From: an uncultured Verrucomicrobiota bacterium
GTDB taxonomy: Bacteria > Verrucomicrobiota > Verrucomicrobiia > Limisphaerales > UBA9464
Direction: 5' to 3'
Assembly (NCBI GenBank): GCA_903821635.1
Contig: CAIJLV010000088.1
Span: forward strand, 1 to 64,000
Length of the DNA stretch: 64,000 nucleotides
Shown: piece after piece, positions 28,966-37,044 of the stretch
How positions within the stretch are numbered: position 1 is the stretch's first letter
How the letters are laid out: each line of letters begins with the position of its first letter
Notes under the pieces: generated by a model
The model's input: only the letters and a program-made list of their open reading frames with translations
Database searches by the model: none
What the model was told of the DNA's origin: nothing
Made by a program: the position numbers and the translations under genes

Positions 28966-31347
28966 ATGTTCTACCGGATTCTCTCGTGGCGGTGGGCCTT
29001 GGCTGGGTTGTGCCTGCTGCGCGCTGGAGCGCAGACCAACGCGCCGGCCGCGCCCGACGACAAACCACCCGCCGCTCTGGCACCCGGGCATTCCGCGCAT
29101 GGTCAGGCCTTCAACGAAGGTCCGCGTCAACCCGCCTACCTGATGGCTGGAATGCCTCGGATCGAATTTCCGGTGACGACCACGAACGAACTGGCGCAGA
29201 AATTCTTCACGCAGGGCGTGGGGCAGTGGCACGGCTTCTGGTTCTTCGAAGCCGAGCGCTCGTTCCGCCAAGCCGCTGTCCACGATCCCAATTGCGCGAT
29301 GGCGTATTGGGGCATGGCGATGGCGAACTTCCCCACCACCAATCGGGCGCCGGAATTCATTGCCGAAGCGGTCAAACTCAAGGGCCAGACCAGCCGGCGC
29401 GAGCAACTGCGGATCGAAGCCTTGGCGGAGTTCTTCAAGGACCCCAAGCGCGACGAGAAGGAACGCCGGCGCGACTACGTGCGGGCGCTGGAGCACCTCG
29501 TCTTCGAGTTCCCCGATGACATCGAGGCCAAGGCCTTCCTCGCCTTTCACATCTGGGACAACGGCTACAAGGGGCATCCCCTTTCCAGTGCGCAGGCGGT
29601 GGAATCGCTCCTGAAGGAGATCTTTGCCGCGCAGCCGATGCATCCGGCCCACCACTATCGCGTGCATCTCTGGGACGGTGAGCCGGATCCCGTGGCCGTC
29701 CGGGCACTGCCGTCGGCGGCGCTCTGCGGCCCAAGCGGACCCGGCATCGCGCACCTGTGGCACATGCCCGGGCACACGTTCAACAAGCTGAAGCGCTACG
29801 AGGACATGGCTTGGCAGCAGGAGGCCAGCGTGCGCGTGGATAACGCGCAGATCATGCGCGATCGCGTGATGCCCGACCAGATCCACAACTACTCGCACAA
29901 CAGTGAATGGCTGGTGCAGACACTGAACTACGTCGGCCGAGTCAAGGACGCGCTCGCCCTCGCGCGCAACCTGATCGAGATGCCGCGGCACCCGAAGTTC
30001 AACACCTTGAATCTCCAGACCAACGGAGTGCCCTACGAACACTCCGGCGGCACCGCAACCGATGGTCGCCAACGGTTGGTCGAGACACTCCTGCGCTACG
30101 AACTTTGGGACGAAGCCCTGCGGTTGGCCGACACCCCGTATCTCCCACCAACAGAGCTGGGCGAAGAGCAGTCCCGGCGCGCCCGGTTGCTGGGGGTGGC
30201 GAATTTCTCCCTCGGTAAGGTCAGTGAAGGCCGCGCCCAGATCGCCATTCTCGAGCAGGCAGCGAAACAGTTGCGGGCCGAACGCGCCGCCCGGGTGGAT
30301 TTCGCGGAGGCGAAGGCCAAGGCGGAGAAAATGGGCGCGGACGAACAGTCCAAGGCGATGGCTGAGGCGTTGCGTGGGGCGCAGTCCCCGCTGAATAAAG
30401 TCGATGAATTCTTGGCCGAACTCCGCCTGCTGGAGGCCCTCGCCCAACCCGATACGGCCGATCTGACCCATCGGTTGGAAGCGCTTAAAAGCGTCTCCAA
30501 AGAACGGCTTTCACTGCTGTGGCTACAAGTGGGCGACACCAACCGGGCCGCAAAGCTTGCCCAAGAAGCCGTCGAAGGCGGCACCAATCAGGTTCAATTG
30601 TTGGCCAACCAAGCCGACGTCCTGTGGCGCTTGGGCAAAACCAATGAGGCCACGGCGGCCTTCACGAAGCTGCGGGAGCGTTCCGCGTTTCTGGATTTGG
30701 ATCTGCCCGTGTTTCAGCGGCTCCGACCGTTGGCGACCGAACTGGGTTGGCCCGCCGACTGGCGGGCGCAGCCGGAGCCGCGAGCCGATGTCGGAATCCG
30801 CCCGGAGTTGAGTTCCCTCGGGCCCTTGCTTTGGCAACCGTCCCCGGCGCCAGAATTTGCGCTACCCACCGCGGCCGGCCAACCGGTGTCGCTAAGTGAC
30901 TACCGCGGCCAGCCGGTGCTCGTGCTCTTCTACCTCGGCCACGGGTGTGTTCATTGTTTAGAGCAGCTCAAGGTCTTTGCCCCGGTCGCCCAAGATTTTC
31001 AGGCGGCGGGAATCAAGCTACTGGCGGTCAGCGCCGATTCCCCGTCGGCCCTCGGCAAAACGGTCGAAAAAGCGAAGGTGAGCGGGGGCTTTCCCTTTCC
31101 GCTCGTCGCTGATGGCGGGCGAGCGGTCTTCCGCGCCTACCGCGCCTACGACGGGTTTGAGCGGGAGCCATTGCACGGCGTGTTTCTCGTGGATGGCGCC
31201 GGTATGATTCGCTGGCAGGACATCAGCCATGAGCCGTTTACCGATGTGAAATTCCTACTCGCCGAGGCGAAGCGGCAACTGCAATGGCCGTCGCCGGTCG
31301 CTCCCGGTGCGACCCGAGCGGGGGCCGGTGCCGGCGGGCCGCGCTGA
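28966..31347 (+). CDS. Secreted TPR protein with C-terminal redoxin (AhpC/TSA) domain
   Basis: A 793-residue protein. The N-terminal signal segment (ILSWRWALAGLCLLRAGA) is followed by a long alpha-helical region with TPR-like pairs, for example AERSFRQAAVHDPNCAMAYW. Histidine-rich motifs lie at HPAHHYRVHLWD and HLWHMPGHTFNKL. A thioredoxin-fold domain at about 625-775 starts APEFALPTAAGQPVSLSDYRG and has C661-V-H-C664, an active-site-like CxxC. Similar proteins are annotated as redoxin or tetratricopeptide proteins in Verrucomicrobia and Acidobacteria. The role is unknown; periplasmic thiol chemistry is inference. Confidence 0.75.
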   Translation: MFYRILSWRWALAGLCLLRAGAQTNAPAAPDDKPPAALAPGHSAHGQAFNEGPRQPAYLMAGMPRIEFPVTTTNELAQKFFTQGVGQWHGFWFFEAERSFRQAAVHDPNCAMAYWGMAMANFPTTNRAPEFIAEAVKLKGQTSRREQLRIEALAEFFKDPKRDEKERRRDYVRALEHLVFEFPDDIEAKAFLAFHIWDNGYKGHPLSSAQAVESLLKEIFAAQPMHPAHHYRVHLWDGEPDPVAVRALPSAALCGPSGPGIAHLWHMPGHTFNKLKRYEDMAWQQEASVRVDNAQIMRDRVMPDQIHNYSHNSEWLVQTLNYVGRVKDALALARNLIEMPRHPKFNTLNLQTNGVPYEHSGGTATDGRQRLVETLLRYELWDEALRLADTPYLPPTELGEEQSRRARLLGVANFSLGKVSEGRAQIAILEQAAKQLRAERAARVDFAEAKAKAEKMGADEQSKAMAEALRGAQSPLNKVDEFLAELRLLEALAQPDTADLTHRLEALKSVSKERLSLLWLQVGDTNRAAKLAQEAVEGGTNQVQLLANQADVLWRLGKTNEATAAFTKLRERSAFLDLDLPVFQRLRPLATELGWPADWRAQPEPRADVGIRPELSSLGPLLWQPSPAPEFALPTAAGQPVSLSDYRGQPVLVLFYLGHGCVHCLEQLKVFAPVAQDFQAAGIKLLAVSADSPSALGKTVEKAKVSGGFPFPLVADGGRAVFRAYRAYDGFEREPLHGVFLVDGAGMIRWQDISHEPFTDVKFLLAEAKRQLQWPSPVAPGATRAGAGAGGPR

Positions 31348-31431
31348 CGAATGCCACCGGTTTAAGCCGGTTTCATTTTCCACCGATACGCCTTTGGGCT
31401 GGAAGCCATTCGGGTATCCGTCCGCTGGTTT

Positions 31432-33279
31432 ATGATTTTCTCGGCAACTGCACTTTCGGTGGGCACACAAAGCGGGTGGAACGACGCCATTTTTGGCGCC
31501 TTGCCGCTGTTGGGCGAGGCGAGTGGCGTGCTCACGATGGCGGTGGCCATCGCGGTGCCGACCCTCTTGGCCGGGGCCGGCTTGGGCTGGCGACTGCGCG
31601 AGAATCGAGCCCGCCAGAAGGAATTGCGCCTGCGGCAAGAATTTCAGTCGGAGCGCGATCGCATCACCTCCGAAGTCGGTAACGAAGTAAAACGGGCGCA
31701 AGAATCGGTGGCGGCCTCGCGCGAGGAGTTGGTCGGGGTGGTGAATCAGGAAATCCGCACACCGCTCCACAGCCTGATGGGTTACCTCGACATGTTGCTG
31801 GAGACGCCGCTGGCCTTTGATCAGCGCGAGTTGGCGCTCGCCGGCGGCCGTTCGGCCGAAGTGCTGCTCCTCAGCCTGAATGACTTGTTCGACTACACCC
31901 GATTGGAAGCGGGGCAGTTGCAATTGTCCCCGGCCGTGTTCGATCTCGGGGAGCACGTGGTGGATGTTTTGGAACTGCTTTCCGGGCACGCGGCGGAGAA
32001 GGGGATCGAACTGGGGTTTGAATCGAACCAAGCGCGGGCGGTGATGGTGGAGGCGGACCCCGTGCGGAGCCGCCAAGTGTTGGTCAGCCTGATTGCTTCC
32101 CTGATCAAACTCAGCACCGATGGGCATCTCTCCATCCGCTTGGAACCAGTCGAAGAAGCGAGCCGTTTCCGGGTTCGTTGCCTCATTCATCGCAGCGGCG
32201 AAGGCGCCACCCGGCAGACCCTGGCCCGCCTGTTGGGGCTCGATCCGAGCCCGGCCGCGGTTAAAGGCCGCGAAGAACCGTCCCTGAGCCTGCTGATTAC
32301 GCGCAAGATCGTGGAGCGGATGGGGGGGGAAGTGGGCGTGGGAGACGGCGATAATGACGCGAGTGAAGTTTGGTTTACGCTCCCGTTGGCCGATGAGGGC
32401 ACCGTGCGGATGACCGCCAAATTGCCGCTGGTGGGCACGGGCTTTCGCGTGCTCGTCATTGAACCCTCTTCCGCCAGCCGGCAGTTGGTGGTGCGGCATC
32501 TTGAGGCTGGCGGATTCACTGTCGAAACGATCACGTCGGTGATCGGGGTGACGGATCGCCTGCGCGCGGTGTCGGCGGGTCGGCCGCCCGTGAATGCGGT
32601 CGTTTTTTCGGAAGCACTGGCCGATGCCAGTGGGCGGACGTTTGCCCAGTCGGTGCGTTCGGAAGCGGCGTTTGGCCGGGTTGCCCTGATTTGCCTCCGC
32701 CGGCAGGGACTGACTGCCAATGGCGCCGTCTTGGCGACGCTCGGGGTCGTGGAAGTCACGAAGCCGGTGCTGCGCGCCGCGCCGTTTCTCAACACGGTCA
32801 TCGGGGTGATTCACAGCCAAGAGGCGACTTGGGCCGCCGGGAAAGTGCCCACCGCGATCGTCGAACCGCCGAAGCAGGCGATCTGGGTGCCCAAGGGGTT
32901 TGTCCTGCTCGCGGAAGACAACGACGTGAATCGGCGGGTGATGGTGGAACTGCTCCGCCGCCTCGGCTGGGCGTGCGACGTGGTCAACGACGGGGCCGCG
33001 GCGGTCGCGGCGGCCACGAACAAAAATTACTCGCTCGTCCTCATGGACTGCCACATGCCGAACATGAGCGGCTTTGAATCCACCCGGCAGATCCGCACGG
33101 AGGAGAAGAACAACCGGCGCAAGCGCACCCCGATTGTCGGCGTCACGGCGGACACTCTGCCAACGATTCGGGAACGGTGTCGGCAGGTCGGCATGGACGA
33201 TTGCTTCTTTAAGCCGGTCCGCCGCTCCGAACTGGAGGAATGTCTCTGCCGCTGGGCGCGCCCATTGAGCGGTAACTAA
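31432..33279 (+). CDS. Hybrid histidine kinase-like protein with degenerate kinase core and two receiver domains
   Basis: A 615-residue protein: N-terminal membrane segment (about 30-55), coiled-coil linker, HisKA-like helix pair (about 95-160), HATPase-like region (about 205-330), REC1 (about 337-460) and REC2 (about 490-612). The expected H-box His is Gln106 (NQEIRTPL). The N-box asparagines are replaced (SLIASLIKLST), and the DxGxG and GLGL boxes are missing or altered (EPSLSLLITRKIVERMGG). REC1 lacks the acceptor Asp (AVVFSEAL). REC2 is intact, with acidic pair AEDND, acceptor Asp539 (LVLMDCHMP) and Lys in FFKPV. Probably a phosphorylation sink or scaffold rather than an active kinase. 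Confidence 0.82.
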   Translation: MIFSATALSVGTQSGWNDAIFGALPLLGEASGVLTMAVAIAVPTLLAGAGLGWRLRENRARQKELRLRQEFQSERDRITSEVGNEVKRAQESVAASREELVGVVNQEIRTPLHSLMGYLDMLLETPLAFDQRELALAGGRSAEVLLLSLNDLFDYTRLEAGQLQLSPAVFDLGEHVVDVLELLSGHAAEKGIELGFESNQARAVMVEADPVRSRQVLVSLIASLIKLSTDGHLSIRLEPVEEASRFRVRCLIHRSGEGATRQTLARLLGLDPSPAAVKGREEPSLSLLITRKIVERMGGEVGVGDGDNDASEVWFTLPLADEGTVRMTAKLPLVGTGFRVLVIEPSSASRQLVVRHLEAGGFTVETITSVIGVTDRLRAVSAGRPPVNAVVFSEALADASGRTFAQSVRSEAAFGRVALICLRRQGLTANGAVLATLGVVEVTKPVLRAAPFLNTVIGVIHSQEATWAAGKVPTAIVEPPKQAIWVPKGFVLLAEDNDVNRRVMVELLRRLGWACDVVNDGAAAVAAATNKNYSLVLMDCHMPNMSGFESTRQIRTEEKNNRRKRTPIVGVTADTLPTIRERCRQVGMDDCFFKPVRRSELEECLCRWARPLSGN

Positions 33280-33298
33280 AGCCAGCTGGCCCAGTGGC

Positions 33299-34741
33299 TC
33301 AGAGAACGTTCGCGGCGACTTCCGCGAGTTCGCTGCGTTCGCCTTGAGAAAGCTCCACATGGGCTGCAATCGCTTGGTCGCGAAAACGGTTCACCACGTA
33401 GGTAAAGCCATTGCTGGCAGCATCCACGTAGGGGTTGTCGATCTGGTATGGGTCGCCGGTCAGGATGATCTTCGTGCCATTGCCCGCGCGGGTGAGAATG
33501 GTTTTGGCTTCGAGCGGGGTCAGATTTTGGGCCTCGTCCACAATCATGAACTGATTGGCGATGCTGCGTCCGCGGATGTAGCTGAGTGCTTCGACCACAA
33601 TGGTGCCGTTGCGCAACAGGTCCGAACTGCGGCGGGACTCGTGCCCCATGTTGAGGTCGCCCAGCATTTCCAAGGCGTCGTGGATCGGTTGCATCCAAGG
33701 ACCGAGTTTTTCTTCGAGTGAACCGGGCAGAAAGCCCAACTCTTTGCCCATGGAGATGGTGGGGCGCGCCACGATGAGGCGGCGGAAATCCCGGTCGGTG
33801 ACCGTGCGTTTGAGGCCGGCGGCAAGGGCGATCAGCGTCTTGCCGGTGCCGGCTTTGCCCATGAGGGAAACGCACTTGATCCGTTCGTCGAGTAGGGCAT
33901 CGAGTGCGAAGTGCTGCTCTTGGTTGCGCGGTTTGATGCCCCAGACCTGGCCGCACTCGTGCAGCGGGACGAGTTTGGTGGCGGTGGAATCGACCCGACC
34001 GAGCATGACTCGTTTGGGATCGGTATCGCAGCTCAGCCGGCAATATTCGTTGGGAAATCGGCGCGGCGAGGCGGGCAGAGCCAGTTCTCCCAAGGAACGA
34101 AATTCGGCGAGTTTGGCCGACGGCAACACGAGGTCGAACCGGCCGGTGTAAAGATCCTTTAGGTTGACCCGGTCCGTCTCGTAATCCTCGGCCGCCAAGC
34201 CCCAAGCATCGGCCTTCAGTCGGAGGTTGATGTCCTTGGTGACGAGAATCGTCGGGGTCTTGCGGTCGGCGCGGCGAACGTCGAGCGCGAGGGCGAGAAT
34301 CCGGTTGTCCACCGAACCGCGCTCCAGCGTCGCGGTCTCCTTCGGGGCCTTGGCGCCTGCGCCTGCCAATTGGTGGGCGAAAATGATTCGGAGACGTCCG
34401 CCGTGGGCCAGCGGCACGCCGTCGCTGAGGGAACCTTGAGCGCGTAACTTGTCGAGCAACCGGCTGACGGTCCGGGCGTTCTGACCCCGCTCGGTGGTTT
34501 CGCGTTTGAATTTGTCGATCTCCTCGATGACCTCGATCGGCAAGAGGACGTGATTGTCCTTAAAATTCAGCAACGCATCCGGGTCGTGCAGGAGCACATT
34601 GGTGTCGAGCACGTAGTTTTTGATCCGGACGGCAGCCGAGCTTGTGGCTGCTTGGGGGACTTTTTTGGACGCTTTGGCGGGGGGATGAGCCGGCTTCTTG
34701 GAAGAAGCGGCGCCGGCGGGATCCAGCACGTTATCGAGCAC
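33299..34741 (-). CDS. PhoH family protein (PIN domain + PhoH ATPase)
   Basis: A 480-residue cytosolic protein. A low-complexity Lys/Ala N-terminus is followed by a PIN nuclease-like domain at about 41-190 (YVLDTNVLLHDPDAL, PIEVIEEIDKFK, LVTKDINLRLKADA). A PhoH ATPase follows, with NQEQHFALDALLD before Walker A GKAGTGKT (295-302) and Walker B MIVDEAQNL. The conserved LTRAGNGTKIILTGDPYQID is also present. This PIN-PhoH fusion is the common PhoH2 form, proposed to be an RNA helicase/nuclease. Divergent from no close partner; 110 bases precede it. Confidence 0.93.
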   Translation of the reverse strand: MLDNVLDPAGAASSKKPAHPPAKASKKVPQAATSSAAVRIKNYVLDTNVLLHDPDALLNFKDNHVLLPIEVIEEIDKFKRETTERGQNARTVSRLLDKLRAQGSLSDGVPLAHGGRLRIIFAHQLAGAGAKAPKETATLERGSVDNRILALALDVRRADRKTPTILVTKDINLRLKADAWGLAAEDYETDRVNLKDLYTGRFDLVLPSAKLAEFRSLGELALPASPRRFPNEYCRLSCDTDPKRVMLGRVDSTATKLVPLHECGQVWGIKPRNQEQHFALDALLDERIKCVSLMGKAGTGKTLIALAAGLKRTVTDRDFRRLIVARPTISMGKELGFLPGSLEEKLGPWMQPIHDALEMLGDLNMGHESRRSSDLLRNGTIVVEALSYIRGRSIANQFMIVDEAQNLTPLEAKTILTRAGNGTKIILTGDPYQIDNPYVDAASNGFTYVVNRFRDQAIAAHVELSQGERSELAEVAANVL

Positions 34742-34851: not shown

Positions 34852-35787
34852 TCAGCGCGCTGGATTGTTCGTTTGGGCGAGCAGGGCGCGGCCGGACAAA
34901 TCCCAGTCCATCGGCAGCGGCGGCTGTTCGATCACCCGTTGCACCACGCGGCGCCACGCGGCGCGTTCGGCGGCGCTGAGCGACTGCCAGCGTTCGGCAT
35001 CCTGCAAGAATTCAGCCCGTTGTTCCGGGGACAGGCTGGCGAATTTCCGGAACGCATTGACGCAGTGCTGGCGCTTGGCCGGGGGCAGGGCTTCAAAGGC
35101 GGCCAGCGTCGCCGCCATCTGCGCGCGATCCGTTGCGGAAAGCTGCTGCAAGGTGCGCGTTTGCTCGGCTTCCGTCAGGTTGAAGAAGCGTTGAAAACGG
35201 GCGGTCTTGCGGGCGCGTTCCTCCGGGGATAAGGCCAACCACCGCTGGAGTTGGGTCTCGACTTCGGGGCGGGCTCCGACCGGAGCCTGCGCGACGACAT
35301 CGGCCAATTGTTTGGGATCGGTCGTTTCCAAGCGGATAAAAAACGAGAGCGACTGCTGGCTCTCCAGCAATTCAAGCCGGGCGGCGGCGGGTAACGCATC
35401 CCATGCCCGGAGCCGTTCTTCGATCATTGGCCGATCTTCTTCCGGCAGGGTGGCAAGCAGGTTCGCACGCTCGGCCAATCCACGGGTGAGCAGCGGGGAA
35501 AGAAAAAACTGCAACTGGGCAACCCGTAGGCGGAGTTCGCGCTGGGCCGGGGACAGGGTCTCAAACTCGCGCAACTTGGCTGCGATCAAGGCCCGGGCAG
35601 GCGGTGATTTTCGGGCGAGATACGCCTCCCGTTGGCTTTCCGAGGCCACCAGCAACTCCCGGAAAGTTTGCACGGGAGAGCGTTGCGGCGGCCACGGTGG
35701 GGCGGCCGGATCGAGGGGTGTCGGCGCGGTGAACGCGAGGCTGGAGCCCAAGGCCAGAAGACCAACGCTGAGACAGAAGCGACGCAT
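34852..35787 (-). CDS. DUF3106 domain-containing secreted protein
   Basis: A 311-residue protein with a signal peptide (FCLSVGLLALGSSLAFTA) and repeated helical units of the type LSPEERARK, LPPAKRQHC, LSPEQRAEF and LSAAERAAW, each followed by a helix with Phe/Trp. This repeat style is typical of DUF3106. No enzyme motif is seen. It is three bases downstream of a putative anti-sigma factor, and the three-gene unit (sigma, anti-sigma, DUF3106) is recurrent in Verrucomicrobia in my recollection. A periplasmic sensor partner for the anti-sigma factor is inference. Confidence 0.75.
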   Translation of the reverse strand: MRRFCLSVGLLALGSSLAFTAPTPLDPAAPPWPPQRSPVQTFRELLVASESQREAYLARKSPPARALIAAKLREFETLSPAQRELRLRVAQLQFFLSPLLTRGLAERANLLATLPEEDRPMIEERLRAWDALPAAARLELLESQQSLSFFIRLETTDPKQLADVVAQAPVGARPEVETQLQRWLALSPEERARKTARFQRFFNLTEAEQTRTLQQLSATDRAQMAATLAAFEALPPAKRQHCVNAFRKFASLSPEQRAEFLQDAERWQSLSAAERAAWRRVVQRVIEQPPLPMDWDLSGRALLAQTNNPAR

Positions 35788-35790
35788 GGC

Positions 35791-36285
35791 TCACTCGTTC
35801 AAGGCGGCCAATAGGGCTACATCGCCCGGTTGCGGTTCCGTGCGGAAGGATTGGATGGCTTCAAAATCCTGCAACCAAGCGACGCCGGGAATCGCCGCGA
35901 CTTGGGAGACTTCGGAGACCGTGGCGGCCAACTGGCCGCGTTTATGCAGTTGAAATTGCCACCAACCGCCCTCCAGCGCGGCGACGGCGGTGGCGTAAAT
36001 GGCGAATCGGGGCAGTCGCAGCCAAGCGAGCCGGCGGCCCGAGCGAGCCGGCGACCGAGATTCCTGGGCGACGATCTCGGCGAGCACGCGGTGAGTAAAA
36101 TTGCTGGCGGCGCGGGGGCAGGGCTGAGCGTCGAGCAATTGGTTCAGAGCCAACTCCGCCTCCAGTCGGGCGGCTTCCCGAGGACGGTTTGCGAGTTGCT
36201 GGCGAAGAGCGGACACTGCTTCGCTGCCAAGGCGGCGACGCTCCACTTCGTCGAGCCAGTCGTTGTGATCAGGCGCCGGATTCAT
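35791..36285 (-). CDS. Putative membrane-bound anti-sigma factor
   Basis: A 164-residue protein encoded 39 bases after an ECF sigma gene. The N-terminal cytosolic helical part (DWLDEVERRRLGSEAVSALRQQLANRPREAARLEAELALNQLLD) leads to one membrane helix at about 92-107. A short periplasmic tail follows. It lacks the HxxxCxxC zinc motif of ZAS-type anti-sigma factors. The call relies on gene order and topology. Confidence 0.6.
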   Translation of the reverse strand: MNPAPDHNDWLDEVERRRLGSEAVSALRQQLANRPREAARLEAELALNQLLDAQPCPRAASNFTHRVLAEIVAQESRSPARSGRRLAWLRLPRFAIYATAVAALEGGWWQFQLHKRGQLAATVSEVSQVAAIPGVAWLQDFEAIQSFRTEPQPGDVALLAALNE

Positions 36286-36324
36286 CGTGGCTGATGGGGT
36301 TAAAACCGCGGGGCGAGGAAAGTT

Positions 36325-36948
36325 TCATGCCGGCTCATTCCAAGTGCCTGAAGTTAGGTAAGGCTTCAGCCGGGCTTTCAATTGTTCGCGGCCGCGGTGA
36401 ATCAGGGATTTGGTGGCCGGAATGGAAGTTCCGAGGACTTCGGCGATTTCTTCGTAGCTCAATTCGCCTTCGCGGCAGAGCAGGATGGCAGTGCGCTGTT
36501 TTTCGGGCAGTTCGGCGAGAGCCGCGTCGACCTTGTGGAAAATCTCAGCCCGCTGGGTGGCGTCGGCCGCGGAGAGTTCGCGCCGATCTTCGAGCTGACG
36601 GTAGGGATGCGCCTCGTCGTCGGGATGCGGTTCATCCAAGGAATCGGCTGGGTGTCGGGTGCGGCGGCGGATTTCGTTCAGGCACAGATTGCGGGCGACG
36701 GTGAAGAGGAAGGTGCTGAATTTGGCCGACGGCTGATACCGTTCCGCCGTCCGCCACACTTGGACGAAGACGGCTTGGGCGAGGTCTTCGGCCTCCATTT
36801 CATCGGGCAGAGAGCGGTAAACAAAGCTGATGACCGGCTGCTGCCAGCGTTCGACCAAGGTGGCGAACGCCGCGTGCGCGGCTTGGCCGCCGCGTTTTAC
36901 GCGGAGCATCAATTCGACATCAGGATCGACGGGAGGCGCAGGCGCCAT
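36325..36948 (-). CDS. RNA polymerase sigma factor, ECF type (sigma-70 family)
   Basis: ATG 36948 gives 207 residues (an upstream in-frame start at 36987 adds only non-conserved sequence). Sigma2: FATLVERWQQPVISFVYRSLPDEMEAEDLAQAVFVQVWRTAERY, then FSTFLFTVARNLCLNEIRRRTRH. Sigma4: ALAELPEKQRTAILLCREGELSYEEIAEVLGTSIPATKSLIHRGREQLK. Cotranscribed with a putative anti-sigma factor and a DUF3106 protein; regulation by sequestration is expected. Divergent from glnD. Confidence 0.9.
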   Translation of the reverse strand: MAPAPPVDPDVELMLRVKRGGQAAHAAFATLVERWQQPVISFVYRSLPDEMEAEDLAQAVFVQVWRTAERYQPSAKFSTFLFTVARNLCLNEIRRRTRHPADSLDEPHPDDEAHPYRQLEDRRELSAADATQRAEIFHKVDAALAELPEKQRTAILLCREGELSYEEIAEVLGTSIPATKSLIHRGREQLKARLKPYLTSGTWNEPA

Positions 36949-37044
36949 GGGGATGGGCAGCTTTGCGAAACACCACGGCGGCAACAAGGTTGCGCGAAGG
37001 TAATTGCCAATTGCTAACCGGCGTCGGCACCGTCGGGGCGCGTT

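Follow-up and report, generated by a model that had tools for sequence, protein, structure and literature searches.

Positions 31432–33279 (+) of the window, the whole 64,000-nucleotide stretch of DNA analyzed here, form an exact open reading frame with an ATG start and a 615-aa product, ordered as TM, DHp, CA, pseudo-REC1, and REC2. Three Pfam matches lie above the gathering scores: HisKA (41.8 bits, residues 97–161), HATPase_c (33.5 bits, residues 209–320), and Response_reg (82.5 bits, residues 491–603). REC1 was not detected by Pfam in this protein; it is modeled as a receiver fold with block pLDDT 75–94 (whole model: mean pLDDT 79.6, pTM 0.63). An initial sequence-only reading had described the architecture as fully retained, and these matches agree with it. 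The model also keeps the CA fold, with a low-confidence ATP lid (276–280), and contains a long helix (31–123) that continues into the DHp; its nearest folds are ShkA, GacS, RetS, HK853, and DivL. The Kyte–Doolittle maximum, 2.07, falls at residue 33, and no sensor domain was recognized in the protein. The features are as follows.

31432..33279, +: pseudo-hybrid histidine kinase, 615 aa; open frame, Pfam matches, and an orthologue in genome G001 with an identical start
31528..31584, +: one transmembrane segment predicted at about residues 33–51, then coiled coil; Kyte–Doolittle
31717..31917, +: DHp domain, residues 96–162, the most conserved domain; HisKA match, 96% identity, dN/dS 0.024
31747..31749, +: Gln106 codon CAG, aligned with the phospho-acceptor His that 38/38 comparison kinases have; CAG in G001 too
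31750..31761, +: Glu107-Ile-Arg-Thr110, retained E-x-x-T transmitter-phosphatase motif; Glu and Thr in 6/6 aligned clade sequences
32044..32391, +: CA (HATPase_c), the domain with the lowest conservation among the four and predicted to lack catalytic activity; 61% identity, modeled fold preserved
32086..32100, +: remnant of the N-box, Ser219 and Ser223 each replacing an Asn present in 38/38 comparison kinases
32191..32205, +: remnant of the G1 box, Arg254 replacing an Asp present in 38/38 comparison kinases
32272..32289, +: remnant of the G2 box, Glu281, Ser284, and Ser286 each replacing a Gly present in 38/38 comparison kinases
32437..32811, +: REC1 pseudo-receiver, about residues 336–460, with Ser393 (32608–32610) at the Asp site; modeled REC fold, Asp absent in 6/6 aligned clade sequences
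32899..33261, +: REC2 receiver, about residues 490–610, phosphorylation site intact; 82.5 bits, 87% identity, dN/dS 0.056
33046..33048, +: Asp539 codon GAC, predicted phosphate acceptor; Asp in 38/38 comparison kinases and all clade members

The gene lies 84 bp downstream of a same-strand gene (28966–31347) encoding a TPR-like N-terminal part fused to an AhpC/TSA (redoxin) domain, and it faces a PIN-PhoH gene; no two-component gene adjoins it in the window. Further along, 34852–36987 (−) carries an ECF-type sigma factor gene, then a small protein, then a DUF3106 protein, an arrangement resembling a sigma/anti-sigma operon. A 704-aa antisense ORF (31255–33369, −) spans the whole pseudo-kinase gene; we rejected it as a real gene because it is a G+C-rich shadow whose counterpart in G001 is much shorter (440 aa).

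For the signature residues, the reference set was 38 further hybrid kinases taken from the named genome collection. In the kinase part, each residue that binds ATP-Mg or accepts phosphate is replaced: Gln106 stands where 38/38 have His, Ser219 and Ser223 where 38/38 have the N-box Asn at either position, Arg254 where 38/38 have the G1 Asp, and Glu281, Ser284, and Ser286 where 38/38 have the G2 Gly. The H-box Glu107 (H+1) and Thr110 (H+4) survive, and the REC2 residues E495, D496, D539, T572, and K594 agree with the consensus. The substituted H-box His, the eroded ATP-binding boxes, and the intact surround of Asp539, all claimed from the sequence alone, are thereby confirmed. By descent the protein belongs to the HisKA-type hybrid histidine kinases, with HisKA, HATPase_c, and receiver in order; as an enzyme it would not, judging from the replaced phospho-acceptor His and N, G1, and G2 boxes. 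A histidine-kinase fold that lacks the catalytic residues and is maintained by selection makes it a pseudo-histidine kinase.

The gene is present in only five genomes of its family: that of the window (G000), G001, G019, G022, and G030. Further orthologues were found neither among 320 genomes of the order nor in the named genome collection, where the other matches are general hybrid kinases. The G001 orthologue, from a separate MAG of the same genus (LaPlata_bin-1618), is 75% identical to the window protein and repeats both the Gln and the N, G1, and G2 losses. The other three come from three species of a second genus: G019 and G022 retain a normal His with intact N and G1 boxes, and G030 (L042:14113–15912) has an Arg codon, CGG, at the phospho-His site with intact N, G1, and G2 boxes. 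Chance or sequencing error as the source of the His loss is ruled out, since two separate MAGs agree on Gln and the CGG codon of G030 is two changes away from a His codon. Among readable HisKA matches in G000 and G001, 29/29 have His (one further match is out of register), so that no other His-less HisKA domain was found in these two genomes. The Gln form itself is known from two genomes only, both incomplete MAGs.

A tree unites the five orthologues (support 99/97), with the tandem propeller kinases of G019 and G022 as the next branch (100/100) and a very long stem branch, 1.4 changes per site, leading to the window's genus. Parsimony requires two changes of His state on this tree, which implies that His was lost in two separate events, giving Gln and Arg; H+1 Glu and H+4 Thr are retained at each loss. 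Single letters of the ATP lid should not be over-read: its residues appear altered in the short His-bearing forms too, where the alignment is gapped. For REC1, the missing Asp reported by the sequence-only reading stands (Ser393 vs. Asp in 35/38), but it does not belong to the loss of kinase function in this protein: the Asp is absent in all aligned clade members, including the intact G022 propeller kinase, so the defect is older, ancestral to the clade, and can coexist with a complete kinase core. The same reading held that orthologues with a normal His would mark this copy as merely damaged. Two more distant orthologues do have His, but mere damage is ruled out by the Gln common to both genomes of the genus, by constraint, and by the second, independent loss to Arg in G030.

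Between the G000 and G001 genes, dN/dS is 0.129 overall, with 0.024 for DHp, 0.160 for CA, 0.116 for REC1, and 0.056 for REC2, values that are approximate because dS is about 1.35. Identity is 96% in DHp, 87% in REC2, and 61% in CA. CA is 98% identical in the His-bearing pair G022/G019. In two control pairs of intact kinases at the same species split, CA is slightly the better conserved (76% vs. 72% for REC2 in C106/C252; 82% vs. 80% in C77/C277), and the balance in the pseudo-kinase is reversed. The CA share of changes, relative to REC2, is higher in the pseudo-kinase than in each of three pairs of control kinases, of which two span the G000/G001 split (Fisher P 0.003–0.005; three related tests, uncorrected). 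The reversal indicates that catalytic constraint is gone from CA, whereas DHp and REC2 are conserved at least as strongly as in working kinases. The gene is under purifying selection, and decay is not the explanation. Read from the sequences, then, all catalytic elements are gone, their losses common to both genomes of the genus, with the strongest constraint on DHp and REC2 and a relaxed CA.

G000 and G001 have a common block of DUF1553, DUF1501, one variable gene, and the pseudo-kinase; the variable gene, next upstream, encodes an M48-like peptidase in G001 and the TPR-AhpC/TSA protein in the window. A small PIN-like ORF between the DUF1553 and DUF1501 genes of G001 (L040:1168–1662) is absent from the window. 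The sequence-only reading had pointed to relatives for a nearby cognate kinase, and a candidate adjoins the orthologue in two of them: in G019 and G022, an intact propeller hybrid kinase (1366–1373 aa) is the direct neighbor on the same strand, 107–128 bp away. In these tandems (L041:8479–14501 and L043:5477–11487), the short sensorless hybrid kinase and the propeller kinase both have a pseudo-REC1, which suggests an old duplication. G030, where His is lost, retains the flanking methyltransferase and metallo-hydrolase genes without the big propeller kinase. In the sister genus, the tandem propeller kinase is likely the original partner. Its N-terminal part is unmatched in G000 and G001, so the adjacent partner is not conserved. 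As no kinase adjoins the gene in the window, in the covered part of G001, or beside the G030 copy, the partner kinase is a guess; the closest DHp within G000, that of the kinase on contig C106 (26/67 identical), is a weak hint that this kinase could be the partner there. HPt domains occur in all five gene-bearing genomes, and G000 encodes a REC-HPt protein whose REC is 45% identical to REC2.

The reading we favor, at a probability of roughly one-half, is that the protein is a pseudo-kinase anchored in the membrane and paired in trans with an active kinase, with REC2 taking phosphate and/or E107-x-x-T110 dephosphorylating the partner. The protein would be unable to form phospho-His on its own. 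Through its retained four-helix DHp it would pair with, or dock onto, an active hybrid kinase, the intact REC2 (Asp539) would receive phosphate from the partner's His, and E107-x-x-T110 might remove phosphate from the partner's receiver; the outcome would be a phosphate sink or brake, or phosphate passed to HPt. We infer the partner, the pairing, the phosphate acceptance, and the phosphatase activity, and the scaffold or phosphate-accepting role proposed earlier is likewise inferred. The loss of all parts needed for kinase action, beside a pairing domain and a receiver that have hardly changed, suggests that the protein was remodeled to restrain another kinase or to drain phosphate from it. 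Prior reports describe compatible behavior: HisKA phosphatase action does not require the conserved His (PMC12632262), and RocA is a pseudo-kinase that acts via a partner kinase in the membrane (PMC7028121). Counting against the favored reading, the retained REC2 may be limited to shaping the DHp–REC surface, and CA, still under some purifying selection, may hold a binding role outside it.

Other uses of the retained domains have to be weighed against this pairing. The DHp might instead dock a phosphorylated response regulator, leave its phosphorylation unchanged, and inform another kinase, with REC2 as part of the reader module, as in a DivL-like sensor. The docking surface is indeed the most conserved domain, and DivL too has a non-His residue at the phospho-site and functions without kinase activity (PMC4211667), but the REC2 phosphorylation residues are all kept under strong constraint, and the ATP-binding boxes, all kept in DivL, are none of them kept here; we regard this account as possible but doubtful. 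Somewhat less probable is a passive scaffold or stand-alone regulator, in which small donors or an unlinked HPt would phosphorylate REC2 and the DHp would only homodimerize. The intact REC2, the HPt proteins encoded in the genome, and a TM, coiled coil, and DHp sufficient for a dimer all fit it; 96% DHp identity including E-x-x-T is not obviously needed for a mere dimer, however, and the protein has no output domain. More speculative still is the possibility that a hybrid kinase duplicate, lying in tandem and lacking a sensor, became a His-less regulator of its parent pathway, at least twice independently, and that in the window's genus the Gln106 amide is itself catalytic, placing water to dephosphorylate the partner receiver without ATP. 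Gln places water for dephosphorylation in HisKA_3 kinases and CheZ.

Two further accounts fare worse. In a ligand-gated, ShkA-like protein, pseudo-REC1 would bind c-di-GMP and govern REC2 exposure. Although no solved structure is closer than ShkA in sequence and fold, and its DHp-CA-REC1-REC2 order is identical, no GGDEF protein was found in the five family-carrying MAGs (87–95% completeness; control genomes positive), Glu441 and Leu427 occupy the positions of ShkA Tyr338 and Arg324 (PMC7010744), the DDR linker motif is absent from residues 461–487, and no kinase remains to be switched. This makes c-di-GMP gating very improbable; pseudo-REC1 may bind another ligand. A decaying gene whose frame is not yet lost would account for the eroded CA and the very long stem branch, but it is hardly tenable: the frame is open in both genomes of the genus despite the high dS, both carry Gln106, and dN/dS stands at 0.13 for the whole gene and 0.024 for its DHp. 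That the protein is kept rather than decaying, as the sequence-only reading held, is upheld.

His is absent from about 0.9% of HisKA domains (PMC12632262). Few His-less HisKA domains have a series showing the conversion of a working kinase. Here the steps can be followed: REC1 became a pseudo-receiver first, His disappeared twice, and one branch lost its ATP boxes, with DHp and REC2 retained all along. The clade offers a natural test of which functions outlast catalysis, with the tandem active kinase of the relatives as a candidate partner to test.

Among known systems, RetS of Pseudomonas, which inhibits GacS, is likewise a membrane-anchored DHp-CA-REC1-REC2 protein with a degenerate ATP-binding domain, no autokinase activity, and an intact REC2 Asp and H-box Thr. 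The pseudo-kinase resembles it in its degenerate CA, whose boxes are lost, and in the retained T110 and D539; it departs in its H-box, where His is replaced by Gln106, in a REC1 without Asp, and in having no recognized sensor, and the partner of RetS is known. RetS retains its His and has a periplasmic sensor. Unable to autophosphorylate, RetS siphons through its REC2, acts as a phosphatase by way of HExxT, and blocks autophosphorylation (PMC5992135), and it is the experimental precedent for pairing in trans, phosphate acceptance by REC2, and an E-x-x-T phosphatase. Subfamily 2 ethylene receptors (ETR2 and monocot relatives) have a diverged kinase domain without His and a canonical receiver, and are proposed to receive phosphate from kinase-active subfamily 1 receptors (PMC3611092). 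These His-less receptors with canonical receivers offer an analogous precedent for the combination; being plant proteins with ethylene-binding and GAF domains and one receiver, they are alike in logic, not in membership. DivL of Caulobacter is also a pseudo-kinase with a non-His phospho-site, but it has Tyr rather than Gln, all ATP boxes intact, and no receiver, traits the pseudo-kinase does not share. ShkA, also of Caulobacter, is the best sequence and fold match and likewise has a pseudo-REC1 followed by a true REC2; it differs in being an active kinase, with c-di-GMP site residues and a DDR motif that are missing here. Pseudo-histidine kinases are already known, and what stands out most in this one is that His was lost twice independently and that constraint has measurably moved from CA to DHp and REC2.
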